Below, one piece after another: positions 2,980 to 20,984 of a stretch of DNA of 21,648 nucleotides. A model generated the notes under the pieces. It was given only the letters and a program-made list of their open reading frames with translations. It did not search any database and was not told the origin of the DNA. The position numbers and the translations under genes were made by a program. The stretch comes from a virus: positions 1-21,648 of the IMG/VR virus record IMGVR_UViG_3300043567_001147; one strand, 5' to 3'. The first letter of the stretch is position 1; each line of letters begins with the position of its first letter.

Positions 2980-2987
2980 TTTTACCC
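2980..2987 (-). promoter_or_regulatory. GGGTAAAA element upstream of the protease/scaffold
   Basis: GGGTAAAA on the minus strand, with its first G being the last base of the portal TAG stop. It lies 29 bases before the GTG start at 2950. One of six such elements in the window; the role as late promoter or regulator site is inferred. Confidence 0.5.
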
Positions 2988-4609
2988 TACTTTCTATCCA
3001 TCTCAACTGCTTCGTCCTCCGTGATTATTTGGTCGCCGAACGGTTTCTCTTCATCATCAGAAATGCTCTCTTCGGGCTCATTGTCCCAAAGGAAGTCAAG
3101 CTCATCGTCCAGCTCAGTCGGAGCACCGGTGCTGCCTTCCTCAGTGCTTGCCAATAGGTCGTCAACAGAAGGGTCCCCTATTGCGTCAGCTTGGGATTCT
3201 TCGGGAGCAGCGCCAGCGGGCATGTTCATTTCGTTTGCTGCTTTCTCAAGCTCACCAGCAGCGGCTTGCTCTCCTTGGGGGGTGGGACCTTGCCCCTCTC
3301 CCTCAGGGCCAAAAATGTTTTCAAAAAGATTCTGATCTTTTTGCGGATCAAATTGTGCCTCTTCCTCTGCGCCACCACTTTCGCCGGGAGACTTCTCTTC
3401 CAGCTCCACGCGGAAGTGACGCTCGATCCATTCTTTGCGAGGAGTGTATCCAGACTGAATGAGCAGGGAAAGGTCGGGAACCGTGATGGCAGATTCCTCG
3501 ATGCGAAACTCGCGAGTCAGAGAGGGTGAGGCAACGTCAGTGCCAAAGTTCAGATCGACGATCCAACGAACCAAGGTTTGTGAGAGTGTGTGCGAAAGCA
3601 TTTCGGAGAGCTCGCTTGCTCGCACCACACGCACCGTGTTTGCCACTTGAGAGGAAGCGCGGGAGCCTGCTTCAGCCTGCCCAGCTTCGTTCTCTCCACA
3701 GATAACCAGAGAGATTTCTTTGTCGATATAGTCAATCAGATTTTTGAAAACTTCGGGAGAACCGGAGGGGACAACGAACTCAAGCTCGTATCCTTCCGGC
3801 AGAATCATTGCCGTTTCTTGCGAGAGATTGGAAAGATGGCCGTAGAGCGTATCCAACTCTCTCGTGCTCGCACTGAGAGGGGCTTTAGCAACAGCTGTCG
3901 GCGTCGCGTAACGGTCGCCGTAGAGCACGTAAGACTCGATGGCACGGCGCCGAAACTTGACGAGAGGATAAAGAATGCGGCCGAGAGAAGAACCGTATGG
4001 GTCGCCGTTGTGCGAAACCCAGTAGCGAGAGACGATAAACTTCCGCTGTGGGAGCTCAACACCTTCAAACATGCGGTTGAAAGTGAGGCAACGCATTGTA
4101 AAGCCAGTGCTGGCATCTTGCTCTTCCTGGAAAACGAAACGGCGCTGATCGCGCATGCGAACGTCAAAAGGAATCACACCGCGCTTGGTCTTCTTCCACA
4201 TGATTTCTCCAACAGAGAAACCAGTGATCATCGCCTCGGCCATTCCCACATAGATGTCATCCAGAGGCATCTCTTCCAGAACTTCGGCCACAAAGTCCCG
4301 GACTGCCATGTCTCCAGGTTTATCCGAATATTGCTGAACATACCAGGGACGCGAAGTCACTTCTTGGAGCAACTTGCGGAAGCATCCCTGCACTTGCTCG
4401 TCATAGAGCAGACGCTGATACACCACCAGGGCGCGGTTGCCACCCTTCTGAATCAGAAGATCGTCGTTCGGGCGAACGATCGTGTTCCCCTGCCCCGTGA
4501 AGGGAGAGGAACTACCGAACATGTAGATTGACGATAGATTATATGGGTCGCTCGTGTACCTTGCGACTTCTCCTGATGGGACTGGTGCTGTCTTGAATCG
4601 CTGCGCCAT
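2987..4609 (-). CDS. Portal protein, Mu gp29-like (DUF935)
   Basis: 540 residues. The portal forms the ring at the capsid vertex through which DNA enters and leaves and to which the neck attaches. DUF935 features in order: a helical region with VTSRPWYVQ (about 84-92); GMAEAMITGFSVGEIMW (about 122-138); a fold around DQRRFVF; the typical DPYGSSLGRILYPLVKFRRRA near 203-223, then YGDRYATPTAV; a region ending YIDKEISLVICGE near 294-306 with a following Gly/Ala/Ser-rich loop; and LVRWIVDLNFG near 346-356. Residues after about 400 form a very acidic Glu/Asp/Pro-rich tail, longer than I expect for the core family. No strong ribosome-binding site is visible. It sits between the gp25-like gene and the scaffold, with a GGGTAAAA element on each side. 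Confidence 0.88.
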   Translation of the reverse strand: MAQRFKTAPVPSGEVARYTSDPYNLSSIYMFGSSSPFTGQGNTIVRPNDDLLIQKGGNRALVVYQRLLYDEQVQGCFRKLLQEVTSRPWYVQQYSDKPGDMAVRDFVAEVLEEMPLDDIYVGMAEAMITGFSVGEIMWKKTKRGVIPFDVRMRDQRRFVFQEEQDASTGFTMRCLTFNRMFEGVELPQRKFIVSRYWVSHNGDPYGSSLGRILYPLVKFRRRAIESYVLYGDRYATPTAVAKAPLSASTRELDTLYGHLSNLSQETAMILPEGYELEFVVPSGSPEVFKNLIDYIDKEISLVICGENEAGQAEAGSRASSQVANTVRVVRASELSEMLSHTLSQTLVRWIVDLNFGTDVASPSLTREFRIEESAITVPDLSLLIQSGYTPRKEWIERHFRVELEEKSPGESGGAEEEAQFDPQKDQNLFENIFGPEGEGQGPTPQGEQAAAGELEKAANEMNMPAGAAPEESQADAIGDPSVDDLLASTEEGSTGAPTELDDELDFLWDNEPEESISDDEEKPFGDQIITEDEAVEMDRK

Positions 4610-5029: not shown

Positions 5030-5328
5030 CGGATATACCTGCGGGAAATTTGAAATTCGAGAGCATTGACTCTTTTCTTCACCTCGTCGGTGGGAAGGTC
5101 ACTCTCAATGACTTTGCGAATCTCTTTGCGAAGAACATCGAGATGCATTGATTGATAAAAGTTTGGATCAACAAGACTTCCTTCGTTGTTTTCGCCTGAG
5201 AGCCGAGAAATACAGAGTGCCTCGAGTGAGACACCCTGATCCTCGGCCTGTTGCTCAAGCTGAAAAAGAAGGGAGTCTGGGATGCGTAGATTTAGATCCC
5301 GGTACAAAATGTGACTCCCTATACTCAT
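5026..5328 (-). CDS. Ribbon-helix-helix-like small protein
   Basis: 100 residues. The N-terminal 43 residues read like an Arc/CopG-type ribbon-helix-helix: a short strand (RDLNLRIP, about 10-17), helix one (DSLLFQLEQQAEDQG), then SLEALCISRL as helix two. Such dimers bind short DNA repeats through the paired strand. The rest (44-100) is a charged helical region ending ISRRYIR. Its ATG shares one base with the sheath stop (TGATG) and its stop overlaps the gp25-like start (ATGA), so it is embedded in the tail operon. It could be a transcription factor made with the tail genes; alternatively the resemblance is superficial and it is a small tail assembly protein. Confidence 0.55.
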   Translation of the reverse strand: MSIGSHILYRDLNLRIPDSLLFQLEQQAEDQGVSLEALCISRLSGENNEGSLVDPNFYQSMHLDVLRKEIRKVIESDLPTDEVKKRVNALEFQISRRYIR

Positions 5329-8300
5329 CAGAACGAATTATCCTGTCCGAGTCCTTGCAGATCCAGCTCATTCTGCATATTGCCGATGGCAACACGGATG
5401 AGGTCGATCTGGATGCGCTCCAGTGTCGGGACCGGGGTCACGAACACCTTGGCGTTCACGATGCCGTTCTCCAAGTCAGCAGGCGGGTTGATGCGAGAAT
5501 CGCAGATCACCTGGAAGGCTTGGTCCGGAGTCGCACCGAACAGAGCACCCTTCACGTACAGCTGGTTCAGGATAGCGTTGCCCACCAGAATGATCTGGTT
5601 GAACACGATACCGAAACCATCGATCACGTTGAAGATCTGGCTGTCGAAAGCGCGACGGAGCGAGCCATACACCACGTTGAGAATAACGCGAGTGTTGACG
5701 AACTTGTACAGCGCCTGTTGAGCGTCGTTCGGGTTGGGCAGACGGGTGCGACCACCCCAGATGAACACGGCAGTCTGCGGATAACCAGGCAGGGTGCGGA
5801 TTGCGTTGCATCCTTTCGGGTTGAGCAGATTCTGCTGAGCCGAATTGATCGGAATCTGAGTGGCGATGGCATCGTTCAGCTGATACTTCACGCCAGCGGG
5901 CGGGAACTGGTAGCCCTCGGAGCGGTAGCGGCGGACGGCCACACCGGTCACATAGGGCGACGGGGGAATCCACTTGCCAGCACCGTTTTGGATGTACGGA
6001 CCGTAGTAGGCAATGAAGCCGAACGGGTTGGCATAACGCTGCGAGTCATCCAGCAGGCGGTTGACGTTGTCAACACCAGCATCCACAAACACAGCCTCAG
6101 GCTCACCACCGTTGCCAACGCCACGGAGGGCATTGTCAATGATTTCGGTGGAAGTGATGGCATCGAAGCGCCACAGCACAGCAGGAACAACTTCCTCAGC
6201 ACTGAAGGTCATTTCAATCTGAGAGTTGTACTGAACGCGGCCAGCGGTGGTGATGTCGCCACCGGCAGCGACGGCGGGAGTCACTTGCCAGCTGTAGGTG
6301 TTGCCGTTGTAGACAGCGGTGATTGTGTCTCCGATGACAACAGCAGTAGTGCCGTCGGGAGCGAAACCTGCGTTGGAAACGATCTCGAAGGTCAGACCAG
6401 TAATGGCACCGGACTCAAGAGCAGCTTGAACCGAGTTTCCAGTGTTGCCTGCACCAATACCTGCAGCTTGAGCGTAGCTACCGGCAGGAGCACCTGTGGT
6501 GACTTCACCTGAGGAAGCGACAAGATTCAGCTCTGTCGCTGTCAGAGTCAGGGCGAAGTTCGTGCCAGACCCACCCACCTGATAGGCGGGAACGGTGAGC
6601 ACATCGCCCACGGCGTAGCCCCAACCGGCTTGAGTCACGGTCACGGTTGTCACCGCGCCACCAGCCACCACGATGGTCGCTTGAGCGCCACGGCCCACGC
6701 CACCAGTCAGTTCCACGTTCTGGTATGTACCGGCAGTGTATCCAGCACCAGGAGTGGTGATTGCGGCGGAGATGTTGGCCAGGGTCAGAGGACCCTCGGT
6801 GCCAGTGCCGGTCGGATCATAGTCGCCACCATAAATAGTGCCCAGAGCAGGAACCATGAAGGCTTCGGCTTGGAACTCCTGATCCACAGTCGGAACGCAG
6901 TAGGCGTTGGCGATTGTAGGAGTGGGGTTCGTGGTCGGGTTCGGCAGTTCCAGCTTCGGCAGCCAGCCAGCGGTGTCATATGTCTCTCCATAGGGCGAGA
7001 TCAGACCGCTGCCCAGAACCACGGCGCTGGTGTTGAAGTAAATGGACTGATCGGGAACGATGTTGGCAGCCGAAACAGCAGGGGCGGCACTCGAGCGCGA
7101 AGCCTGGTTGAAGACGTTGCTGGAGTCGAAAGCGTATTTGCGTCCGCGAATCACGGGGAACTGACCCACATCCTGCAGAGTGATGTCAGTTGTACCGCCG
7201 ACGAGGATGTCGGTGTACATGACAGTCGGCAGGGGCTCGTAGTAGCCATTGACGTACTTCACGAAACTTTGAGTCGTGTAGTTCGACAGGGAGTTGGAAA
7301 CCACGAAGGTGTCACTGTCAACAACGGTCACCCAGTAAGGGTTGGTAGCGTTTGGCGTTGTAGCCTTGATTACGTTCGTGTTGTTGACGATGATGGGCTG
7401 AGTGAAGTAGAGCTTTTGCCCACTCACCAAACCGTGACTCACCACGTTGAACTGCAGAGCACCAGTGTACTTGTTGGTGCTGCCACCCACGACCGAAGCC
7501 ACGGTGATGGCAAAACCACTGCCGGAACCACCAAGGTTGGCATTCGCAGCAGTCAGCACGTCGCCGACATAGTATGCGGAGCCAGCTGCCACCAGGACCA
7601 CGGAGGTCACAACGCCAGCAGGGCTCACGGTGATGTCAGCAGTGGCGCCTGTGCCATGCAGACCCACGAGGGGTACGGCAAGGTAGGTACCGGCAACGTA
7701 TCCAGCACCACCTTGAAGGCTGCTCAGAGTGGCAACGCCACCAGTGCTACCGGCAGGGCTCACGCCACCCGGATTGGTGTTGGGGTTGAGAATGGTGCGG
7801 CTCACGAAACCAAGACGATAGGTTTCGGTGGGTTCCTGCAGAGTGCCAGGCAGGTGCAGGGTGTTCACACCAACGGTGGCGTTGGTGATGTTCTGAATCA
7901 GGTTGGAAGTCTGACCGTTGATGGTGACAGGGAAGTTCCAGAACGAGTCAGCATAAGCAACGCTGAAGGAGTCGCCGGTGCCAGCTGCAGTAATGGAGCC
8001 GCTTACCGGAGAGGTCGAAGCAGCCAGAGTGCCGCCAGCAGCAACAACAAAGTTGTAGACAGCAGTGGCGTCCTGAGATGTGGTTGCCAGGTAGACAAAG
8101 TTCAAAGGATATGAACCAGTGGCGTCCACCTCAGGAGTATAAGGAGGAGCAATGACGTAAACCTCTGTCCCGTTGTAAGGATGCAGGGGATTGGTCACGG
8201 CATCAGCACCAGACAGCACCACTTTCTGGATCGGCAGGTTCACCGGCCAGAAGTTGGAGCTGGTGATCTGGAACACACCATTAACGGAGGCACCGATAGT

Positions 8301-9584
8301 AACCAGATCGTAGGATCCGGAATCCAGCAGACCCACTTGAACATCGGAGCCAACGGTGTTGGCGGACTCGGTCACAGCGGCTTGAGGGCTTTGACCGGAG
8401 ACGATCGCCTGATAAGCCAGACGGTCGTAGGTGCGGTCAGCACCGGTCCACTGATAGATGGCGTTGTCAATCAGGTACTTCATGCCTGTGATCAGGTCAG
8501 CAGCAGCCTGGTGAGGCTGGAACTCGGAGTACTTGTTGACGTCGGTGATCAGGTAAGGACCAGGATCAGCCAGGGCCATCCACTTGTAGCTGTTGCTTTC
8601 GCAGTGCAGAGCAGCGATTTGACCCACATAGGCACGGCCAGTGGAATCGAACTGAGCATAGGCGGTCGGGGTGATCAGGTAGCCCTGGTCTTGCTGACCT
8701 TCAAACGCAGTGGTGATGCACTGAGTGTAGTCCTGGGGAACGCGAACGATTGCACTCTGTCCACCCACAATGTTGTTGACATCGTAGGTGTTCTGCATGA
8801 ACACGAAATTGGCACCAACAGGGAACACCTGAGTCACCACCGACACGTTGCCGTCAAAGGTCGTGTTGGCAATGGTGATGTAGGAATTCTGCGAGTTGGA
8901 GAGGGGATCGAGGTCGTTCACCAGACCGAAATCGCGCACATAGACAGCAGCGCGAACGGCAGGGTTGGACTCGATGGCAGCTGCCACGGCGCTCGAAATA
9001 GCGGCGGCAATCTTGCGGTTATTGACTTCGTCACCGGCAACATAGTTGACGGGGATGCGAACGGGCACACCCAGGTACTCGTCATTGGCAGTAAAACCAG
9101 GATACTCCAGGTTGAAGTCGTCCTGCACACCGCTGGTCAGACGGAGACCATTGATGACCATTTGCACGTAAACAACGTTACCAGCCATCAGGGCAGACGG
9201 CAGGGAACTTGTGTTAGTTTTGCTACCCGAGGGAAAAAACTCGATCTCAACAATCTGATTCGGGGTTCCAACGCGAACAACCCGCAAATCGCCTACTTGT
9301 GCGTTGTTGAAAAACTCTTCAACGCAGCTGTAGCTCAGCGAAGGAATGCGTGAGGTTGGAATCTGACCACCATTCAGCACTCGGTAGTCGTTCAGTGAAG
9401 AAACGGCAACGGGAGTGTTGAAAGGGAAGATTGTGGTGGGAACGTTCTCCTCGGTCTCTACCAGCATGTAGACGGTGCTAAAGCTGGCAAGTTGGGGAGC
9501 ACCGGCAAGACCGGCACGCTCATTGATATAAACGCCGGGAGCTCCGGGAGTAATCCCCGAAGTGCCCAAAGAAAAAGTGGCCAT
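5328..9584 (-). CDS. Contractile tail sheath protein, very large
   Basis: 1418 residues. The sheath surrounds the tail tube and contracts to drive it through the envelope. The N-terminus has the family opening GITPGAPGVYINERAG (10-25) and a first domain to about 110 (SCVEEFFNNAQVGDLRVVRVG). The C-terminal 250 residues are a classic sheath core: YANPFGFIAYYGPYI, VTGVAVRRYRSEGYQFPPAG, NAIRTLPGYPQTAVFIWGGR near 1260, VNTRVILNVVYGSLRRAF near 1296, then the closing beta strand VFVTPVPTLERIQIDLIRVA near 1380. T4 gp18 is 659 residues; the excess here is a Gly/Ala/Thr/Val-rich beta region between about 430 and 1130 that includes two approximately 80-residue repeats. The start follows a structured leader of about 105 bases. 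No tube gene follows; an RHH-like gene does. Confidence 0.93.
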   Translation of the reverse strand: MATFSLGTSGITPGAPGVYINERAGLAGAPQLASFSTVYMLVETEENVPTTIFPFNTPVAVSSLNDYRVLNGGQIPTSRIPSLSYSCVEEFFNNAQVGDLRVVRVGTPNQIVEIEFFPSGSKTNTSSLPSALMAGNVVYVQMVINGLRLTSGVQDDFNLEYPGFTANDEYLGVPVRIPVNYVAGDEVNNRKIAAAISSAVAAAIESNPAVRAAVYVRDFGLVNDLDPLSNSQNSYITIANTTFDGNVSVVTQVFPVGANFVFMQNTYDVNNIVGGQSAIVRVPQDYTQCITTAFEGQQDQGYLITPTAYAQFDSTGRAYVGQIAALHCESNSYKWMALADPGPYLITDVNKYSEFQPHQAAADLITGMKYLIDNAIYQWTGADRTYDRLAYQAIVSGQSPQAAVTESANTVGSDVQVGLLDSGSYDLVTIGASVNGVFQITSSNFWPVNLPIQKVVLSGADAVTNPLHPYNGTEVYVIAPPYTPEVDATGSYPLNFVYLATTSQDATAVYNFVVAAGGTLAASTSPVSGSITAAGTGDSFSVAYADSFWNFPVTINGQTSNLIQNITNATVGVNTLHLPGTLQEPTETYRLGFVSRTILNPNTNPGGVSPAGSTGGVATLSSLQGGAGYVAGTYLAVPLVGLHGTGATADITVSPAGVVTSVVLVAAGSAYYVGDVLTAANANLGGSGSGFAITVASVVGGSTNKYTGALQFNVVSHGLVSGQKLYFTQPIIVNNTNVIKATTPNATNPYWVTVVDSDTFVVSNSLSNYTTQSFVKYVNGYYEPLPTVMYTDILVGGTTDITLQDVGQFPVIRGRKYAFDSSNVFNQASRSSAAPAVSAANIVPDQSIYFNTSAVVLGSGLISPYGETYDTAGWLPKLELPNPTTNPTPTIANAYCVPTVDQEFQAEAFMVPALGTIYGGDYDPTGTGTEGPLTLANISAAITTPGAGYTAGTYQNVELTGGVGRGAQATIVVAGGAVTTVTVTQAGWGYAVGDVLTVPAYQVGGSGTNFALTLTATELNLVASSGEVTTGAPAGSYAQAAGIGAGNTGNSVQAALESGAITGLTFEIVSNAGFAPDGTTAVVIGDTITAVYNGNTYSWQVTPAVAAGGDITTAGRVQYNSQIEMTFSAEEVVPAVLWRFDAITSTEIIDNALRGVGNGGEPEAVFVDAGVDNVNRLLDDSQRYANPFGFIAYYGPYIQNGAGKWIPPSPYVTGVAVRRYRSEGYQFPPAGVKYQLNDAIATQIPINSAQQNLLNPKGCNAIRTLPGYPQTAVFIWGGRTRLPNPNDAQQALYKFVNTRVILNVVYGSLRRAFDSQIFNVIDGFGIVFNQIILVGNAILNQLYVKGALFGATPDQAFQVICDSRINPPADLENGIVNAKVFVTPVPTLERIQIDLIRVAIGNMQNELDLQGLGQDNSF
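6534..6776 (-). repeat. Beta-rich GY-GTY repeat, sheath copy 2
   Basis: Sheath residues about 937-1017. Pattern: PGAGYTAGTYQNVELTGG, then GAQATIVVAGGAVTTV, then AGWGYAVGDVLTV, then GGSGTNFALTLTA. It is the clearest of four copies in the window, and is probably a surface-exposed insertion. Confidence 0.75.
7491..7733 (-). repeat. Beta-rich GY-GTY repeat, sheath copy 1
   Basis: Sheath residues about 618-698. Pattern: GGAGYVAGTYLAVPLVG, then GATADITVSPAGVVTSV, then GSAYYVGDVLTA, then GGSGSGFAITVAS. It aligns along its length with copy 2 and with two copies in the protein at 14856-15803. Confidence 0.72.
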
Positions 9585-10471: not shown

Positions 10472-10885
10472 TTAGTATTGTCGAAGAATGTTTTTCCAGG
10501 AAATTGGAACAATTTGTTTGAGAGAGTCATCGGGAACTCCCATCCAGGGGCGGGCGGACATTTTGCTCGTACCAAACTGGTTGAAAGCACCGTAGCGTGT
10601 GGTGCGAACGAGAAATTGATCGCGGCCACGAGTAAAAATGTAAGAGCCGTCAAGCATAGCCCCCGTGCGGCGCAGAATTGGTTCGCCGGGAAAGTGCTTG
10701 GCCTTCCATTTTGCTGTGCTGGGTGCCAATGACGCCCATTTTTGCCCATAGGTTGGGTCTTGTTGTCGTTTTTGATATCGGTAGTTGTCGTCTATTAGAA
10801 GTGGAACCCACTCTCTTTGAGTAGGAGTCCACCACCGCAGATTCATTCTCTGCAGTCCGTCGCCTGCAACGCGAAACCGAATCAT
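10472..10885 (-). CDS. Tail completion / virion morphogenesis protein, gpS-like
   Basis: 137 residues. It has the hallmarks of the P2 gpS-like / Mu virion morphogenesis family: WASLAPSTAKWKAKHFPG (about 50-67), ILRRTGAMLDGSYIF (about 70-84), RYGAFNQFGTSKMSARPWMG (about 97-116), where YGxxxQFGT...ARPW(M/F)G is the key motif, and a C-terminal helix (DDSLKQIVPISWKNIL). These proteins act at the top of the tail during head-tail joining. The start overlaps the T-frame stop in ATGA, so it is translationally linked to the chaperone pair. Confidence 0.82.
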   Translation of the reverse strand: MIRFRVAGDGLQRMNLRWWTPTQREWVPLLIDDNYRYQKRQQDPTYGQKWASLAPSTAKWKAKHFPGEPILRRTGAMLDGSYIFTRGRDQFLVRTTRYGAFNQFGTSKMSARPWMGVPDDSLKQIVPISWKNILRQY

Positions 10886-11854: not shown

Positions 11855-12039
11855 AGTGATCTGAGCATGTTGACTGTCTGGTCCAGGTCAAAGTAGCGAG
11901 AGTTATAGGCACACTCAACCGAGGAAGGAATCACACGATTCTTTTTGTCGTAGGGGACCGTGAGGTAGTAGGTGTCGATGACGCCCTTGAAAAGGAGCAC
12001 ACCGACAGACTCGACACGGGATTTCTTTTGTTTTTTCAT
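11851..12039 (-). CDS. Unknown small basic protein
   Basis: 62 residues, starting MKKQKKSRVESVGVLLFKGVIDTYYLTVPYDKKNRVIPSS and ending LDQTVNMLRSL. The N-terminus is basic and the rest looks like a small beta fold. The ATG shares its A with the TGA of the polymerase (TGATG) and the stop overlaps the next ATG (ATGA), which supports it as a real, coupled gene joining the polymerase to the tail operon. No family recognised. Confidence 0.6.
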   Translation of the reverse strand: MKKQKKSRVESVGVLLFKGVIDTYYLTVPYDKKNRVIPSSVECAYNSRYFDLDQTVNMLRSL

Positions 12040-14819
12040 CAGATCATTCCTTTTTGGATTGCGTTGAAGCGAACTTTGAGTTTGTCGATGGCACCGATTT
12101 CGGAAAGTTCCATCATTGAGTATTCCACACCGGGCTCTTCCTTCTCTCCCCCAGGATTGGAAAGGGTCACCGTCTTTTCAGTCGGTGATTTGCGAAGGCG
12201 AGTGTCGATAGCGACAGAGGAGAAATAGGCTCGGGAAAGCGGAAGGTCAGGGATCTCCAGCGCCGAGTGGAAAAGGGACCAGGTGTACATGTGAGCGATC
12301 TGAAAAAGCACAGCAAATTGCTCTGCATATCGCTCGGGAGTCATGAACCAGATCTCGTCGTGAATACTGAGCACGAATCGACAGGGGATTCGATACTCAG
12401 CAGCCAACCAGTGCACGGCGGTGAGCATGATACTCAGGATCTCGGCACCCGAAGACTGAATGGTCCAATTGACGCGACCGGTTTTGAAATCGTCGCCGAC
12501 AGCAGCGGGACGCATTGCGGTTGAGATCTTGGTTCCAAGGCACGGAAGCGTTGGGACACGCGACCGCATCGCAATCTCTTCCATAAAGTTGAAGCAACCG
12601 CTGTCGCTCCCTCCTTCATAGAGACCGTTGCGCTGTTTGCCTTTCTTTCCTTCAAGAATGCGATACGCAAAGTTTTTGACTTCTGCTGGAGACTTCTCTG
12701 GATACTTTCGACGAATGTAGGTTTGCACAGCGCGAACACCAGCGCCATAAAGCACAGCAAAGCCGGCAATCTTGGCAGTGTCGCGATCTACGCCCGCGAG
12801 CTTCGCGAGCGCGGAGTGCGGGTCCGTGCCCGCCTCCTTGCTTCCACTCAGCACATTGTATCCAAACGGTGAGCAACCGACGTGACCACCTTCCCATTTG
12901 TCGGAATAGATTGAGGCAATCTGCATCTCCTGACCGTCAAAGTCAGCGCCGACAATCTTCCACCCGTCAGGAGCTTGGACTCGAGACTTTAGTTCTGTCC
13001 CGATCCTCCAGTTTTTGGTGGAGCACATTGTCACCATGAGGCTCTCCACGGTGCGTCGAGTGACGGTGCCGTGGCAAAGGATTTCGGGAAGGGTGACCAG
13101 GGCGTCAGCGCCGTGGGGATTGGCTGCTGGAAGAAAGATACGGTCCATAACTCGTTTCCGGACCGAAGTCCAGTAGGACACTGCGTTTGCAATCTCAAGC
13201 GCACGCTTTGCTTCGGGCAGGTCGCTGTTTAGACGGCCCACCTTCATGTCATCGACGAAGTCTTTGGAAAGGACACCGCCAACGTTATCCCCGTTTCCTT
13301 TCGGGTGAGGGATCTTTGTCAGAGCACCGTCTTCGTTGTGAAAACACCAGCCCATGTCCTTTGTCAGGATCATCGGCGTGTTTTCCCACTGCAGTTTGAG
13401 AAGGAGGTGGGACAAGTTGCTTTTGACTCCGATGTGAGTGTCGGGGTCTTTGACGAACGGACGCACCCAATTCGGAACATGTGCGTATTTGCCTTTCTCC
13501 GACTTCACTTCCCAGTCAAGTTGAGACAGCCAGGGATCCTTGGCAATCCAAGACTCGGCCATGCCGGGTTCTGCGAAGTAGCGATCACGCCATTCTTCGT
13601 AGTATTGCCAGACAAGGTCCTGGCATAGCTTCGTCATTTCGGCATTGTGCTCATCGAACACTCGCTCTACACCCTTGATCCAGTCTTCCCAGTCGGGTAC
13701 GAGGGGAACGATGGATCCATTCAGGTGGTAATGCCCACAGAGGGCAACCAGGCTGGGAGTGGCATCGAGATACTTCGGCCAGATTGCCTGGAAGAGCTCA
13801 GCAGTGTAGAAAGCATCTTTGACAGCGTAGTCAACAGCCTGCGTCAGCATCTGCCGAATCTGACTCAGGTGCGTAGCCTTGACGAAGATGTCACGAACGG
13901 CTTTGTCTCCGGCGCCAAGGGGTTGTACGTCGTCACCGAAGTACTTGCGCACCTCATAAACGTGAAAGTTGTACGTGGCAACCAGGGAGTTGGTGGAACC
14001 TTCGTCCAGCCACTTGGGTGCATAACGCAACTTGCGCTTTTCCTCATCCGTCAAATCCTCGGGATCTTTGCCAGCGAGAACATAGAGCCAACGCTGGCCC
14101 GAAGCCAAGCCACTCACGCCAATGTGTGCGGACAGAGTGTCAAAGTAAAAGTTTTCTGGTTTGACACGGTCAAGGGAGTACCCTTCGCGGGCACGCACGC
14201 GATCATAGGAAATGTTGTGACCGGCAATGAAACGGTTCTCGCCAACAGGGATCAGGTCGTACTGGTCCCACTCGTCCTCAGGGAGGGACGGATCGACAAG
14301 TTCGGCAGCGAGCCAGACATAAACTGCTTTGGCAGAGAGTGCGGTGCCGATGATGGGAAACGCACCACCGTGCACAAAGGTCTCGGTGTCAAATGTGAAA
14401 GCGTCTTCAAGTGGGTACGGAACCTTGGTGACTTTCCACTTTCCTCGCACTTTTTCATAACGGCGCCAGCCGCTTTCAAAGACAAGTTCGGTTGTCGGGG
14501 GCAACTCTGGGAGTTTTGCTTTTGCAAAGTCATCGGCCCACCCCTTGTACTGGCCGACTTGTTCCTTTGCGATGGTCTCAAAGTGCTCACGCAGGGCGGG
14601 AGCTTTGAGTTCAGGAAGAGGAAGAGGGCCGTCGTAGAGGTGGTCAGGGTAGTCAACCGGAGTCGCCACCCCAAACTCCTTCAGCAAGTTCTCAGCCTTT
14701 TGCTTGGCCAGGCGCGACATGGGCGCGGGCGTTTCTACACCAAAAATCCTGGAATGAATCTCTTCATCCAGGACTGGGTATCCGAGCGAGGTTTTTCGCA
14801 TAGACGATGTGTTTTTCAT
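12039..14819 (-). CDS. Family A DNA polymerase, mitochondrial Pol gamma type, with 3'-5' exonuclease
   Basis: 926 residues; replicates DNA and carries proofreading. Exonuclease motifs: I, FTFDTETF with D144/E146; II, AGHNISYDRVRAREGY with D206; III, YAVKD with Y331/D335. Polymerase motifs: A, VGADFDGQEMQIAS with D626/E631; B, DRDTAKIAGFAVLYGAG with R679, K683, F687, Y691; C, LSIHDEIWF with H820-D821-E822. Pol gamma-specific stretches, compared from memory with the human enzyme, include GTVTRRTVE (584-592), RIGTELKSRVQAPDGW, GTDPHSALAK, GGSDSGCFNFMEEIA (736-750), GRVNWTIQSSGAE (781-793) and AYFSSVAIDTRLRK (864-877). The order and spacing fit Pol gamma rather than E. coli Pol I or T7 polymerase. 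It is shorter than human Pol gamma (1239), mostly in the spacer between exonuclease and palm. F687 replaces the Tyr of human Pol gamma (Y951). A TATAAT box ends only six bases before the ATG, so the mRNA may be leaderless or start at Met7. Confidence 0.96.
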   Translation of the reverse strand: MKNTSSMRKTSLGYPVLDEEIHSRIFGVETPAPMSRLAKQKAENLLKEFGVATPVDYPDHLYDGPLPLPELKAPALREHFETIAKEQVGQYKGWADDFAKAKLPELPPTTELVFESGWRRYEKVRGKWKVTKVPYPLEDAFTFDTETFVHGGAFPIIGTALSAKAVYVWLAAELVDPSLPEDEWDQYDLIPVGENRFIAGHNISYDRVRAREGYSLDRVKPENFYFDTLSAHIGVSGLASGQRWLYVLAGKDPEDLTDEEKRKLRYAPKWLDEGSTNSLVATYNFHVYEVRKYFGDDVQPLGAGDKAVRDIFVKATHLSQIRQMLTQAVDYAVKDAFYTAELFQAIWPKYLDATPSLVALCGHYHLNGSIVPLVPDWEDWIKGVERVFDEHNAEMTKLCQDLVWQYYEEWRDRYFAEPGMAESWIAKDPWLSQLDWEVKSEKGKYAHVPNWVRPFVKDPDTHIGVKSNLSHLLLKLQWENTPMILTKDMGWCFHNEDGALTKIPHPKGNGDNVGGVLSKDFVDDMKVGRLNSDLPEAKRALEIANAVSYWTSVRKRVMDRIFLPAANPHGADALVTLPEILCHGTVTRRTVESLMVTMCSTKNWRIGTELKSRVQAPDGWKIVGADFDGQEMQIASIYSDKWEGGHVGCSPFGYNVLSGSKEAGTDPHSALAKLAGVDRDTAKIAGFAVLYGAGVRAVQTYIRRKYPEKSPAEVKNFAYRILEGKKGKQRNGLYEGGSDSGCFNFMEEIAMRSRVPTLPCLGTKISTAMRPAAVGDDFKTGRVNWTIQSSGAEILSIMLTAVHWLAAEYRIPCRFVLSIHDEIWFMTPERYAEQFAVLFQIAHMYTWSLFHSALEIPDLPLSRAYFSSVAIDTRLRKSPTEKTVTLSNPGGEKEEPGVEYSMMELSEIGAIDKLKVRFNAIQKGMI

Positions 14820-16106: not shown

Positions 16107-16904
16107 CTATCCTTTGTTGAGGAATTGCTTGAGCTCAAACTCGCGAAGTCCTGTAGAATCATAGACGGCATCCTTGTGTTTACGGTAAATTTCGTAGGCT
16201 TCAAAAATTGTGGAGAAGTTCAGCGGGCGATCTCCGGGAGAGTCACGCCAAAGAAGCATCTCCGGGAGGGAGAAGGGGGCATCAATGTCCCACTGTTCGT
16301 CGCGAGCTCCGTAGAGCAGAGGCAAGGCGTCGTTGGCCCACCACTCACGCATGTAATCGACAGCATCAGCCCAGGTGTCGGGGTCTGTCAAGTGAGTCTC
16401 ATACTGAGTCCGCATCCAGTCGACGTATTCGCGACCGCGAGCAATCACGAGGGCCGCAGAGGGAGGCACTTCTGTCAGGAAATAGGCTTCTTGATCTCCG
16501 AAAACCACCCGCTCAATCACGGCAGGAAACAGGAATGCCTCTGAGATGAGGCGAATGTCTGTGGCCGTGCCGGAGATGAGGCGGAGGATGCTATCAAGGA
16601 TAGCCACAGTTGAGGCAATCTTGAGTTCGCTCGGTGAGACGTCAGTTGTCACACTCTCGGGCATCTCCTTACGCAAAAGCGCCAACTCATGTTCGAGTCG
16701 ACGCACTTCACGACCCATCTCGCGTTCAAGTTTGGACTTATAGATTTCGACCTGGGTGAGAACGTTGTCAAACTTTGAATCGAGCTTGGACAGGTCTGCG
16801 TCAAACTTTTCGACAGAGACTTTGAGGTCCGAGAGTTTTTTCCTCAGCGAAGACACTGAGGACCGCATGCTGTTGGTTGCGAGAACTATGTTGTCAGCAG
16901 TCAT
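16107..16904 (-). CDS. Unknown protein with N-terminal coiled coil
   Basis: 265 residues. Residues about 14-82 are a long coiled coil (SLRKKLSDLKVSVEKFDADL, then VEIYKSKLEREMGREVRRLEHELALLRKEM). The remainder is a globular acidic domain with many aromatics (REYVDWMRTQYETHL, AVDYMREWWANDALPLLYG, LLWRDSPGDRPLNFSTIFEAYEIYRKHKDAVYDS). The ATG shares one base with the preceding stop (TGATG), so the pair is coupled. I do not recognise it; a structural spacer or an assembly role is possible. Confidence 0.65.
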   Translation of the reverse strand: MTADNIVLATNSMRSSVSSLRKKLSDLKVSVEKFDADLSKLDSKFDNVLTQVEIYKSKLEREMGREVRRLEHELALLRKEMPESVTTDVSPSELKIASTVAILDSILRLISGTATDIRLISEAFLFPAVIERVVFGDQEAYFLTEVPPSAALVIARGREYVDWMRTQYETHLTDPDTWADAVDYMREWWANDALPLLYGARDEQWDIDAPFSLPEMLLWRDSPGDRPLNFSTIFEAYEIYRKHKDAVYDSTGLREFELKQFLNKG

Positions 16905-17452
16905 CAGTAGATTGGCTTGTAGGTTGCGCGGAGGATGTCAGCTTGAACGTCGATGATGTCTACGTTGAAGGCGTATTGACGCTCGGGGTCAGAGAGAAGG
17001 TGAAACGCACCTTCAAAACGTTCGCCGTCTTCGGAACGAAGGTAGCTGTTGCCAGGTGTCGGCGGGGAAACAAGAGCGATGTTCCCGTCAAAGTCAGGGT
17101 TGGCCTCAACGATGGACTTGACGATGCGGTCGTAGATGGCACTTGCTGCGGCCATCTCGTGGTCATTGGTGATTTGAGCGCGAAGCTCGCCGTCGATGGG
17201 CTTGAGAATGGAAGCGAGGCCGGTGTTGAGGGTCATTTGAACCGTGCCGTCGGAGTGATCCATGGAGAAGCAGATTTCGTCCGCAGTGAATTCGATTTCT
17301 TCCGGATCTTCGTATTCTCCAAATCCGTGTTCAATCAGCTCGTAGAAAGCATTTTTGAGTGTCTCTCCGTCGGGTCCTTCGAGAGCGTTTGCAATCGCAA
17401 AGAAAATGCGAGGGTTGGCCAGAAGCCGTTCGACAGGGTAGAAAATTTCCAC
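16904..17452 (-). CDS. Unknown acidic protein
   Basis: 182 residues from the GTG at 17452, preceded by GGAG eight bases upstream. A longer reading to 17536 would run through the promoter and GGGTAAAA element and is unlikely. The protein starts with VEIFYPVERLLANPRIFFAI (initiator GTG), has an acidic region (EHGFGEYEDPEEIEFTADEICFSMD), a segment AAASAIYDRIVKSIVEANPDFDGN, and ends with a beta-rich part and YKPIY. Its own sigma70-like promoter and a GGGTAAAA element lie upstream, so it heads a transcription unit with the next two genes. Function unknown. Confidence 0.65.
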   Translation of the reverse strand: MEIFYPVERLLANPRIFFAIANALEGPDGETLKNAFYELIEHGFGEYEDPEEIEFTADEICFSMDHSDGTVQMTLNTGLASILKPIDGELRAQITNDHEMAAASAIYDRIVKSIVEANPDFDGNIALVSPPTPGNSYLRSEDGERFEGAFHLLSDPERQYAFNVDIIDVQADILRATYKPIY

Positions 17453-17473
17453 AGGTATTGCTCCACTGGGGGC

Positions 17474-17501
17474 ATTATAGGGACGCCGGTGGCGAGGTAA
17501 A
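17474..17501 (-). promoter_or_regulatory. Sigma70-like promoter of the gene at 17452
   Basis: The -35 TTTACC (17501-17496), 16 bases, then a perfect -10 TATAAT (17479-17474), 21 bases before the GTG start. TTTACC pairs with GGTAAA (17519-17514 on the minus strand) across 12 bases. Confidence 0.65.
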
Positions 17502-17512
17502 GCCTCAGGTGG

Positions 17513-17520
17513 TTTTACCC
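17513..17520 (-). promoter_or_regulatory. GGGTAAAA element upstream of the gene at 17452
   Basis: GGGGTAAAACC, 12 bases downstream of the RTX stop and 60 bases before the GTG start, upstream of the sigma70-like promoter. Both signal types therefore occur at one junction. Confidence 0.45.
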
Positions 17521-17532
17521 CGCCGGGTGGGA

Positions 17533-18960
17533 TCAACCCATGAACTGGATGGCGCGGGAAGCGTCGAAGCCAGCGAAGGTCACGCCTTCCAGGGTGGTCT
17601 TGTTGTCGCCACGGTTGATTTCGACATAGCCCTGAGCATTCTGGCCAATGGTGTACTTCGGATCTGCGAAGACCAGAATCTTATCACCCTCGCCGAGGTT
17701 GAAGTCTTTGAAGGTGTCCTGGCCAGCGCAGAGAACAAAGGAGTCGGCGCCTGCGTTGCCATAAACGATGTCGTTGCCAGTGTTGTTAATGAGCATGTCG
17801 TTGCCGAAACCGCCCCAGAGCACGTCAGCACCGTCGTTGCCATACAGAATGTCATCGTCTTGGTTGCCGATGAGGATGTCGTCACCGAAGCCACCCCAAA
17901 GAGTGTCAGTGCCAGTGCCACCGCTCAGGGTGTCGTTGCCCTGGTTGCCAGTGAGAACGTCGCTGCCAGCGCCACCACTGAGGGTGTCGTCGCCGAAGAG
18001 CCCCTTGATCCAGTCGTCACGGTCAGTGCCGGCCAGAACGTTGCTGTTGTTATCGCCAGCAATGTCAACGTAGGTGCGGTTGTCCACCGTGATCGTGCCG
18101 AAGTTGTTCAGCACGTTGACGTTGTTGTTGTTGCCGTTGATGGTGACGTTGGTCACGCTGGTGGCAGCCCAGTCGTTGTCCTGCAGGGTGACGGTGGAAG
18201 CACCGACGAAGTTCAGCTTGTAGGCGCTGCTCAGAGAGGCCCCACCCTCAAGACGGACGGCTTCGTCCGTTTCCTTCATCGTGTCGTCGACAGTTTGCAG
18301 GCGAATCTCAGCGTAGTCGGAGCCAGCAGTGAAGCGAACGTCGGGGAAGATGTAGTTGGAACGAGTCTCAGCGCCGACCACGTCGGCTTGGACAAACTGG
18401 TTGCCCAGGTTGGTGAAACTCGGGCGGAAGGAGACCCCGTTGTGATTCTTGGTGTCGAGCTTGAAGCGCATCACCAGGTCTTGGCCTTCGGTGGCCGTGA
18501 CGGAAGGATCGAGCAGGGTTACCGTGTAGGTTGGCACGGCCGGAGCAACCACGGTGGGAGCCACAGGGGTCACGACGGTAGGTGCCTGCAGCAGCTGGAA
18601 CCCGCCAGTCTGCGAGTTGTAGGTCATCGGAGCACCGTACACGTCGGCAGGGAGCACGAAGCTCTCGGCCTTGTAGGTGGTGCGGGCGTAGGTGATATAG
18701 TCCTTGATGAGGGCAGAGTCAACGAAACCTTCGTAGGTTTTGGCACCGACGACATTGTTCAGAAACTCAACGTTGCGAGTGAATGTTTCTTGGCGAGTTT
18801 TGACGATGTTGGAGGGGGACTCGTATTTGTCAATGACGCCGCCTTCCAGCATTGACTGAACAACGTTGATCGAATCCTGAACACCAGTGACTCCCTTGAG
18901 GGCGTTACCTCCGGGGAGGATGACGTAGGGAGCCTTGGTGTAGACGTTAGAAGTTGCCAT
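17533..18960 (-). CDS. Calx-beta and RTX calcium-binding protein
   Basis: 475 residues. Residues 1-125 are an unrecognised domain beginning MATSNVYTKAPYVILPGGN. A Pro/Val linker (TPVAPTVVAPAVP) spans 131-143. Residues 144-263 fit a Calx-beta fold: SVTATEGQDLVMRFKLDT, FTAGSDYAEIRLQTVDDTMKE and the closing STVTLQDND. Residues about 305-405 are RTX nonapeptides GG-x-G-x-D-x-(L/I) in tandem (GDDTLSGGAGSDVLTGN, GNDTLSGGTGTDTLWGG and so on), which wind into a beta roll on calcium. The C-terminal 70 residues resemble the end domain of RTX proteins (DTFKDFNLGEGDKILVF). There is no signal peptide. It may be a virion surface protein whose fold sets when the phage meets calcium outside the cell, or an exported cell-envelope protein. 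It has its own promoter. Confidence 0.85.
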   Translation of the reverse strand: MATSNVYTKAPYVILPGGNALKGVTGVQDSINVVQSMLEGGVIDKYESPSNIVKTRQETFTRNVEFLNNVVGAKTYEGFVDSALIKDYITYARTTYKAESFVLPADVYGAPMTYNSQTGGFQLLQAPTVVTPVAPTVVAPAVPTYTVTLLDPSVTATEGQDLVMRFKLDTKNHNGVSFRPSFTNLGNQFVQADVVGAETRSNYIFPDVRFTAGSDYAEIRLQTVDDTMKETDEAVRLEGGASLSSAYKLNFVGASTVTLQDNDWAATSVTNVTINGNNNNVNVLNNFGTITVDNRTYVDIAGDNNSNVLAGTDRDDWIKGLFGDDTLSGGAGSDVLTGNQGNDTLSGGTGTDTLWGGFGDDILIGNQDDDILYGNDGADVLWGGFGNDMLINNTGNDIVYGNAGADSFVLCAGQDTFKDFNLGEGDKILVFADPKYTIGQNAQGYVEINRGDNKTTLEGVTFAGFDASRAIQFMG

Positions 18961-19046: not shown

Positions 19047-20984
19047 TCACAGGGTGAGTTCGGTGATGGTGGCTACTTTGATGCCGCGAGCGCCAGGGCG
19101 ACCTTGTTTGGTGCTCACAGGGAACAGTTCCACTTTTTTCTTGCGAGTGGAGGCCCAGGGAACCACATAGGAACCTTCGCCAAAGTACAGAAGTTGCGCT
19201 TCTTCAGGGATGACGCGTTTTCCTTTTGAAGTAACCTTACACAAGTCACTCCCAGCAACCATCATCGCTTTGAGCTGGTCCCCGAGTGTGAAGACTGCGA
19301 GGTATTTGCGTTCTGCCACATCAGTTTCTTTCTTTGCAAGTAACACAGGAGAGAGTCCCATGCCAAGAGGACCCTTGTAGTTAGGGGGAAGTTTTTTGAG
19401 CGTGCCATCTTCTGTAAGTGTGATAAGTTTATCAGTCTTTTCCAATATGATGGCTCCTCGTGGTCCTTTCGCTTGTTCGGCCACGCCCCGCTTGATGTCA
19501 ATTTTTATGAATCGCGGTCTTGCCGGCGCCGCAGGCCGTGAGGATCCTTTCTCCACGACAAGGCCTTCGGGTGGATCAATCAGTTCGCTGCGGCGTTTCT
19601 CGCCATGCCGTACCCCAATCTCCTTGATTTCCTTGATCATATACCCTTTGCGTGCCTTTTCGTCCTTGATTAGGGTGTCAAGCTCTGTAATTCGCTCTTT
19701 AAGGGTACCCTCTTCGGTTGCTAGTTCCTCAGAGTCGAGGTTGGTTAATGCCCGGAGTCTCATTTCCAGGATCGCACGGGCCTGATCCGCAGTGAATTTG
19801 AGTGTTTTGTTGGAGACGAGTTCAATCAGGGCTTCTTTTGGTGAAGCTGCGTTTCGAATAATTTTAATAACAGCATCAATCTTGTCGATTGCTTTGAGGT
19901 AACCACGAACGATTTCCAAACGGTGTTCTGCACCGTCTAGTTCGGATTGGAACTTCGCACCCAACCGATCCAGTCGCCATGTCTGCCAACGCGCAAGAAG
20001 CTCACTTGGAGAGAGTTCGACTGGTTTGACCCCGTCCACAACCAGCAACCGCGCCGAATACTTAGTGTCCAGGTCAGTGTAGTGGTAGAGTTGGCGGATG
20101 GCCAGTTGGATATCGGTGCCAGACTTAAGAGTAACCGCGATACGGTCTCCGGTGAGATCAGACTCGTCAATGACATTGGTGATTCCGGTAAGGGACCCTT
20201 TTTCTAGCGCCGCCGCAATTTGCTCCCCGACTTTCTCCGGGTTTGTGCTTGCGGGGAGGTTTGTGAACGTAAGCGTTGTCTTTGCCTTACGACCTGTGCC
20301 CGTTTCAACAGTCTCACAGCGAGCACGGAGGCGGAGGCCCCCAATGCCAGTGTTAGTGTAGGCATCAAGTCCGTCATCTCGAATAATGTCACAGCCGGTA
20401 GGGAATGATGGAACTAAAGGGGACCCTTTTGTGATTGCGTCGCAGATGTCGCGAAGCGAGTGTGGGGGGATCTTTGTGGCGAAACCAACTCCAATGCCAT
20501 CCTGCCCGTTTAACAAAACGGTAGGCACTTTTACGTTTAGCTCCACGGGCTCCTGCAGGGACCCATCGTAATTCTCTGTGGTAACCCACGTATCGGAATC
20601 GGCAAGGAGACACTCCCAGGCAAATGGGGACAGTTTGCATTCCGTGTACCTGCTCGCAGCGGCACCATCGACCGACGACCCCCAGTTGCCCTGCCCAGAG
20701 ATTAAAGGAAGGTTATTATTCCACGGGGCTGCCAATGTGACCATGACGCCATATGCCCCACCGTGAGGGTGCAGCTTGCCCATGGTCTCCCCTTCGACAC
20801 GGGCACTCTTCATAAAGGGACCCTCGGGTTTCAGCCCTAGCCATTTCATTGCGGTGAGGACACGGCGCTGAGCTGGTTTCAGGCCGTCAGTGAGGGACGG
20901 AATTGCTCGGCCCACAATGACAGCCATGCTGTAGGCAAGATAGTCATCTTTAAGTTGCTGGGAGATGTTGGTTGATGTGTCCAT
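19047..20984 (-). CDS. Type IIA DNA topoisomerase subunit A (GyrA/ParC-like)
   Basis: 645 residues; cuts and rejoins both DNA strands to control supercoiling or decatenation. Visible features: DYLAYSMAVIVGRAIPSLTDGLKPAQRRVL (14-43), the gate region HPHGGAYGVMV near 72, ISGQGNWGSSVDGAAASRYTE with catalytic Y113 after R112, and TVLLNGQDGIGVGFATKIPPHSLRDI. A coiled-coil/dimer region follows (RLEIVRGYLKAIDKIDAVIKII, ARAILEMRLRALTNLDSEEL). The C-terminal part (about 480-645) is a shortened beta-pinwheel and ends near GRPGARGIKVATI. It is shorter than GyrA (about 875) and longer than T4 gp52 (442). The partner ATPase subunit is not in the window. HPHGG-AYG replaces HPHGDSAVYD of E. coli GyrA at the quinolone contact. 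Confidence 0.95.
   Translation of the reverse strand: MDTSTNISQQLKDDYLAYSMAVIVGRAIPSLTDGLKPAQRRVLTAMKWLGLKPEGPFMKSARVEGETMGKLHPHGGAYGVMVTLAAPWNNNLPLISGQGNWGSSVDGAAASRYTECKLSPFAWECLLADSDTWVTTENYDGSLQEPVELNVKVPTVLLNGQDGIGVGFATKIPPHSLRDICDAITKGSPLVPSFPTGCDIIRDDGLDAYTNTGIGGLRLRARCETVETGTGRKAKTTLTFTNLPASTNPEKVGEQIAAALEKGSLTGITNVIDESDLTGDRIAVTLKSGTDIQLAIRQLYHYTDLDTKYSARLLVVDGVKPVELSPSELLARWQTWRLDRLGAKFQSELDGAEHRLEIVRGYLKAIDKIDAVIKIIRNAASPKEALIELVSNKTLKFTADQARAILEMRLRALTNLDSEELATEEGTLKERITELDTLIKDEKARKGYMIKEIKEIGVRHGEKRRSELIDPPEGLVVEKGSSRPAAPARPRFIKIDIKRGVAEQAKGPRGAIILEKTDKLITLTEDGTLKKLPPNYKGPLGMGLSPVLLAKKETDVAERKYLAVFTLGDQLKAMMVAGSDLCKVTSKGKRVIPEEAQLLYFGEGSYVVPWASTRKKKVELFPVSTKQGRPGARGIKVATITELTL

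Follow-up and report, generated by a model that had tools for sequence, protein, structure and literature searches.

Where did the mitochondrial replicase come from? The question is open. A 21,648-nucleotide stretch of viral DNA (positions 1 to 21,648 of IMG/VR virus record IMGVR_UViG_3300043567_001147; hereafter the window) carries a gene for a DNA polymerase resembling the mitochondrial enzyme, Pol gamma. Pol gamma is used by animals and fungi, and Pol I-like enzymes named POP by the non-opisthokont eukaryotes (PMC7050145). Among phages, Pol gamma is listed in A-HIS1/2 (2011), S-TIM5 (2012) and S-CBWM1 (2018), and more phage homologues have been predicted (PMC7156551). It is very probable, in our view, that a cyanophage with a contractile tail, belonging to the S-CBWM1 lineage, replicates its DNA with the Pol gamma-type enzyme encoded here. 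The enzyme adds another member to a type already known from contractile cyanophages and is not the first Pol gamma of a myovirus.

The window polymerase is a genuine Pol gamma

Within family A, the 926-residue protein is a genuine Pol gamma, with a match far beyond chance. In Pfam, the mitochondrial polymerase exonuclease model PF18136 matches at 6.8e-59 (199.8 bits against a cut-off of 26.7) and PF00476 at 6.5e-10 (38.9 bits), the PHROGs family phrog_22619 ('DNA polymerase') matches at 5.1e-223, and no 5'-nuclease domain was found in the protein; the NCBIfam matches consist solely of weak Pol I models at 17.7-21.3 bits, far under their cut-offs. All 14 distinct sequences retrieved from the PDB at E ≤ 1e-3 are Pol gamma, led by yeast MIP1 (9c51, 6.9e-110), and identity to the human and yeast enzymes is 30-32% over most of the length. 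The six sequence blocks quoted in the original prediction are present in the translation, and the five that were aligned (GTVTRR, RIGTELKSRV, GGSDSGCFN, GRVNWTIQSSG and AYFSSVAID) pair with similar blocks of human and yeast Pol gamma and poorly with T7.

The same identity is seen at the level of the predicted fold. The AlphaFold model, computed from 37 sequences comprising the window polymerase and IMG/VR loci, has a predicted local distance difference test score (pLDDT) of 85.1 and a predicted template modelling score of 0.85; a single-sequence model was poor (pLDDT 34) and was not used. Pol gamma fills the top 36 places in a Foldseek search of the PDB (E 1.3e-54 to 9.2e-23), with Klenow next at 2.0e-12, and VIA-align superposes 827 residues on Pol gamma with Z 43.4 and a root-mean-square deviation of 3.5. 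The best match from any other family, Pol theta, reaches Z 21.8 (526 residues, 12% identity). Profile search, PDB matches and fold comparison therefore agree with the earlier reading of the protein as a Pol gamma-type enzyme with both exonuclease and polymerase motifs.

In an alignment of 47 of the 49 sequences collected, without E. coli PolA and CRP-143, the catalytic motifs Exo I-III and Pol A-C (Table 1) are all intact in the window polymerase. A variable position in motif B, which we equate with E. coli residue 762, is Phe in all 32 S-CBWM1-like sequences and in A-HIS1/2, and Tyr in the nine S-TIM5-like sequences, Mic1, T7, yeast and human. Residue 762 of the E. coli enzyme is discussed in PMC6370689, and the Tyr of Mic1 and S-TIM5, absent from A-HIS1/2 and S-CBWM1, has already been reported (PMC7156551). 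Separately, motif C reads HDS in 9/9 S-TIM5-like sequences (including L003 and the S-TIM5-like loci) and HDE in 32/32 S-CBWM1-like ones.

Judged from the aligned ranges in the PDB comparison, the spacer between the exonuclease and polymerase domains has 54 residues in the window enzyme against 249 in human Pol gamma, and in the comparison with yeast Pol gamma the same gap is 3 residues in the window and 37 in yeast. The long spacer of the human type is a metazoan trait, not a family-defining one, and yeast too is much shorter. In the human enzyme the long spacer binds the accessory subunit, and because it is nearly absent here, the window enzyme probably works as a single chain without such a subunit.

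Position relative to the mitochondrial enzyme

The first tree held 33 of the 49 collected sequences after 16 similar rows were dropped, and L060, L069, L077 and L078 were kept out because their genes are interrupted; the eukaryotes were represented by two sequences (human and yeast), both opisthokont and pieced together from PDB alignments. In this tree the window is one of 20 members of an S-CBWM1-like clade (96/100), to which the S-TIM5-like sequences (96/98) and then A-HIS (87/99) attach, and mitochondria and Mic1 fall outside at an unsupported fork (68/28). The tree carries long-branch warnings, with Mic1 beside the outgroup and an E. coli PolA branch 6.3 long. In the rooted tree without PolA (20 rows; the outgroup is T7 with CRP-143), the mitochondria group with Mic1 at 89/99, A-HIS joins these two at 73/60, and the window-like and S-TIM5-like sequences group at 79/42. 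In the tree without an outgroup (18 rows), Mic1 and the mitochondria join at 100/99 and the window-like plus S-TIM5-like sequences are separated from the rest at 100/98. The outgroup stands apart from mitochondrial and phage Pol gamma at 100/100 in the first tree and the rooted PolA-free tree (a Pol I row is present in the first only), which answers the check that had been proposed against a Pol I or T7 placement. The window and S-CBWM1 form a clade in both PolA-free trees as well (97/100 and 100/100). Mic1 is the phage nearest the mitochondria in two of the three trees and is not so in the first; for A-HIS we claim no placement because its position in the first tree is lost in the smaller rooted tree.

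Approximately unbiased (AU) tests, made on the first-tree data set, reject a grouping of mitochondria with the window-like sequences (p 1.1e-10) and of mitochondria with the window-like and S-TIM5-like sequences together (p 5.6e-4). They reject neither mitochondria plus Mic1 (p 0.54) nor a single clade of all phage sequences (p 0.29). The window polymerase as sister of the mitochondrial enzyme is rejected, and the proposal that it branches near the base of the mitochondrial clade falls with it, the window instead nesting with S-CBWM1 in every tree.

How else could the gene be read? One answer would be a family A polymerase of the usual T7-like or bacterial Pol I-like sort whose Pol gamma-like blocks are due to chance. 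This has next to no probability: motifs A, B and C of family A are indeed common to T7 and the window, and the general PF00476 model and the weak NCBIfam Pol I models do match, but PF18136 is found in 10/10 Pol gamma phage records and not in T7 or CRP-143, the PDB matches are Pol gamma without exception, the structural gap to other families is large, and in the first tree E. coli PolA groups outside with T7 and CRP-143 at full support; on PDB matches, tree, PF18136 distribution and fold comparison, this identity is rejected. The suggestion that no phage branch lies closer to the mitochondrial clade than the window polymerase could appeal to its identity to the human and yeast enzymes over most of the length. 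We hold it to be very improbable, since Mic1 scores higher to both mitochondrial sequences, with summed bits of 484 and 494 where the window reaches 357 and 409, the AU tests reject mitochondria with the window-like sequences, alone or with the S-TIM5-like ones, and Mic1 is the phage that joins the mitochondria after removal of the long E. coli row.

The direction of transfer might also be the reverse, with cyanophages having taken Pol gamma from a eukaryote, which would make the mitochondrial gene the source of the phage ones. A single phage clade with the mitochondria outside is compatible with the AU test, and the eukaryotic set consists of only two opisthokonts; yet phage Pol gamma is highly diverse (the other annotated phages with long matches are 29-57% identical to the window polymerase), Mic1 joins the mitochondria in both smaller trees, and in the rooted tree the mitochondria lie inside the phages, albeit at weak deep forks. 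We therefore rate reversed transfer as unlikely. Somewhat better placed, although still tentative, is the proposal that cyanophage Pol gamma was the ancestral pool of the mitochondrial enzyme, that a module of Pol gamma, DUF5906 primase and 5'-nuclease may move among cyanophages of differing tail types, and that mitochondria may have drawn on the Mic1-like side, the window lineage and the S-TIM5-like phages being the other main side. In the smaller trees the mitochondrial enzyme is nearer Mic1 than the window, and the window alone leaves the picture of its origin unchanged. The many environmental relatives described below do, however, enable a well-sampled phage side of the tree.

Probable replisome partners and host

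The window is identical to positions 1099-22746 (reverse strand) of IMG/VR contig G001, which has 112,418 bases and 83 open reading frames (ORFs) of at least 100 residues. We propose that the window polymerase replicates the phage DNA, combining 5'-3' synthesis with the linked 3'-5' proofreading exonuclease, and that the same contig probably supplies a primase and a separate 5'-nuclease to the replisome; a topoisomerase subunit is encoded near the polymerase. Computation shows the identity of the enzyme, its catalytic residues and its lineage, and from these we infer its replicative role, its action as a single chain and its partners. The primase of G001 belongs to phrog_25243 (5.5e-130) and matches DUF5906 at 28.2 bits against 27.6, a domain that we take to be D5/SF3-like, and the 5'-nuclease belongs to phrog_26716 and matches 5_3_exonuc_N. 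Also encoded on G001 are an exonuclease of the RNase_T/DnaQ type, a ribonucleotide reductase small subunit, a dCMP deaminase and a sigma factor. The primase family is found in 9/10 Pol gamma phage records and not in T7, and the nuclease family in nine of the ten; in G003 neither was detected.

The host of the window phage is probably a cyanobacterium because relatives carry psbA and G001 carries an Hli-like gene (109185-109406). psbA (PF00124) was found in 7/14 Pol gamma phage records and 4/11 further records. As an observation apart, the psbA match is split into two separated pieces, seemingly interrupted, in S-CBWM1 (W01, 111309-112992) and in G003 (99966-101655).

Several observations weigh against this reading of replisome and host. 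The nuclease family also matches weakly in T7 (1.3e-4) and in 3/14 control bacteria, so that it is the less specific partner. No helicase was recognised among the 44 ORFs of G001 outside the window that were scanned (some also with Pfam), and G001 contains nothing that matches the Mic1 helicase, so the replisome is incompletely described. With respect to the host, psbA is unevenly spread over both sets of records: 5/14 S-CBWM1-like (S-CBWM1, G002, G003, G004 partly, G005), 6/7 S-TIM5-like, 0/2 Mic1-like and 0/2 of the L077/L078 type. It is unmatched on the 112 kb of G001, a possibly incomplete contig, and the Hli-like protein of G001 lies just under the PF00504 cut-off (21.6 against 22.3 bits); annotated Hli genes of S-TIM5 score 17.5-18.5 bits in a six-frame search.

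Among 11 records, the Mic1 helicase (ORF89) matched only itself and 66 residues of S-TIM5, in contrast with the counting of a helicase among the components common to Mic1, S-CBWM1 and A-HIS1/2 (PMC7156551). A helicase of the DnaB_C/Twinkle type (PF03796) was matched in 0/10 Pol gamma phage records, some of which may be fragments, and in 14/14 control genomes (10 above the cut-off). Phage-type RNA polymerase (PF00940) was likewise matched in none of the ten, in a scan whose own controls were unmatched, and in both T7 and CRP-143. A full mitochondrial-type replisome in these phages is rejected on these two results, and because of them nothing suggests the window lineage as a source of mitochondrial Twinkle or RNA polymerase.

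Genomic context

The window phage belongs to the S-CBWM1 lineage of contractile-tailed cyanophages. Five proteins have S-CBWM1 as their nearest isolate: the polymerases are 56.8% identical over 99% of the length, and identity is 53.6% for the terminase, 66.1% for the major capsid, 64.7% for the portal and 45.5% for the topoisomerase. In addition, 8/19 window proteins match a 42.9-kb stretch of S-CBWM1 around its polymerase with the order kept. The sheath and portal genes of S-CBWM1 sit elsewhere in its genome, and therefore the two genomes seem to be rearranged relative to each other. The sheath and portal matches (Table 1) uphold the earlier description of a contractile-tailed phage with a Mu-like portal. 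The expectation that Pol gamma in a myovirus would widen the range of phages carrying it did not hold, S-TIM5 and S-CBWM1 being cyanomyophages already known (PMC7156551).

Table 1. Features of the window, in order of position, with the polymerase domains and motifs listed under their gene.
Feature	Position (strand)	Detail
Head maturation protease	152..2950 (-)	phrog_976 (PHROGs)
Mu-type portal	2987..4609 (-)	Portal_Mu PF06074, 1.7e-70; 64.7% identity to S-CBWM1 over residues 3-403
Tail sheath, contractile tail	5328..9584 (-)	1418 aa; phrog_17610, 1.6e-44
Relative of S-CBWM1 gene annotated 'tail completion or Neck1 protein'	10472..10885 (-)	35% identity
Pol gamma-type DNA polymerase	12039..14819 (-)	926 aa, open throughout from ATG
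Family A polymerase domain	12303..12998 (-)	PF00476 (DNA_pol_A), residues 608-839
Pol motif C	12351..12368 (-)	SIHDEI (D821, E822); alignment
Pol motif B	12738..12785 (-)	RDTAKIAGFAVLYGAG; Phe vs Tyr in human, yeast, T7, S-TIM5, Mic1
Pol motif A	12927..12953 (-)	VGADFDGQE (D626, E631); alignment
3'-5' proofreading exonuclease domain	13770..14621 (-)	PF18136 (DNApol_Exo), residues 67-350
Exo III motif	13803..13829 (-)	YAVKDAFYT (Y331, D335); alignment
Exo II motif	14199..14222 (-)	GHNISYDR (D206); alignment
Exo I motif	14376..14393 (-)	FDTETF (D144, E146); alignment
Uncharacterised protein	16107..16904 (-)	S-CBWM1 gp76 match (28% identity), gene directly before S-CBWM1 polymerase
Uncharacterised protein	16904..17536 (-)	S-CBWM1 gp75 match (31% identity)
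DNA gyrase/topoisomerase subunit A	19047..20984 (-)	Upstream of polymerase; 45.5% identity and synteny with S-CBWM1

Between the topoisomerase and the polymerase lies a gene for a 475-residue protein with RTX calcium-binding repeats (PF00353, 9.7e-27; window 17533-18960, reverse strand), which is unmatched in the S-CBWM1 stretch. Relatives of the sheath were found in 7/7 records compared, and its middle (about residues 606-936) is less conserved among them than its ends.

Relatives in phages, metagenomes and bacteria

The window polymerase matches 13 of 50,697 annotated phage records; the match spans 80% or more of the query in 11 and is weak in the other two, both Roseobacter phages. By megablast the whole window has no match in the same records, a set that may lack those closest to the window. 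In IMG/VR, a search with the window protein gave 75 loci, and in an alignment-based search 319 stretches matched the patterns, 231 of them coding for a relative at E ≤ 1e-3; the best 80 of these 231 have 60-100% identity, and Pol gamma status is not claimed for all 231. There are 44 S-TIM5-like and three Mic1-like loci in IMG/VR, and 51 pattern matches for A-HIS yielded no A-HIS-like relative there. Among 84,980 bacterial species genomes, two degenerate patterns gave 72 matches and two relatives, both in one metagenome-assembled genome (MAG) of Microbacteriaceae (CALGUV01). These two Pol gamma gene fragments (L142 and L143; 56-59% identity) are probably phage DNA binned with a bacterium. A scan of plasmids for Pol gamma relatives gave no match.

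In some relatives the polymerase gene is interrupted. One common site, between motifs A and B at about window residues 673-697, is occupied by some 0.7-0.8 kb in L060 (12146-12949), L077 (6353-7011) and L078 (12396-13054). A second, immediately ahead of the polymerase block at about window residue 498, holds about 0.7 kb in L069 (7239-7950) and about 1.7 kb in L077 (4171-5827) and L078 (10214-11870). The L069 insert contains an ORF for an HNH endonuclease (PF01844, 22.4 bits against a cut-off of 21.4). Rfam at gathering score gave no match in four sources of interrupted relatives, including L060 and L077, and at a relaxed threshold L060 had one miRNA-family match far under the gathering score and L069 had none. 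The inserts at the first site may be introns or inteins.

Comparison with known systems

S-CBWM1 (NC_048106, MG450654) is, like the window phage, a myophage (PMC7156551). The two share the motif B Phe and a gene order of topoisomerase, two unknown genes, polymerase and neck-region genes. They differ in that the S-CBWM1 polymerase has a short insert before motif B that is missing from the window, and the window has the RTX-repeat gene and a fibre-like protein gene in addition between topoisomerase and polymerase. S-TIM5 is also a myophage with Pol gamma (PMC7156551), with related portal, capsid and terminase; the polymerases of S-TIM5, S-TIM54, S-TIM61 and S-TIM66 have 37-38% identity to that of the window, and all nine S-TIM5-like sequences differ from it in HDS for HDE, NTSTNR for GTVTRR and the motif B Tyr. 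The polymerases of Mic1 and A-HIS1/A-HIS2 are of the same family at 29-32% identity, and the Mic1 and A-HIS1 records share the primase and nuclease families of G001, but these phages, unlike the window phage, are siphophages (PMC7156551), and in Mic1 the polymerase gene is split, has the motif B Tyr and is nearer to the mitochondria. Human POLG and yeast Mip1 share the fold and motifs of the window enzyme over the whole length; they differ from it in having Tyr for Phe in motif B, and human POLG in its far longer spacer.

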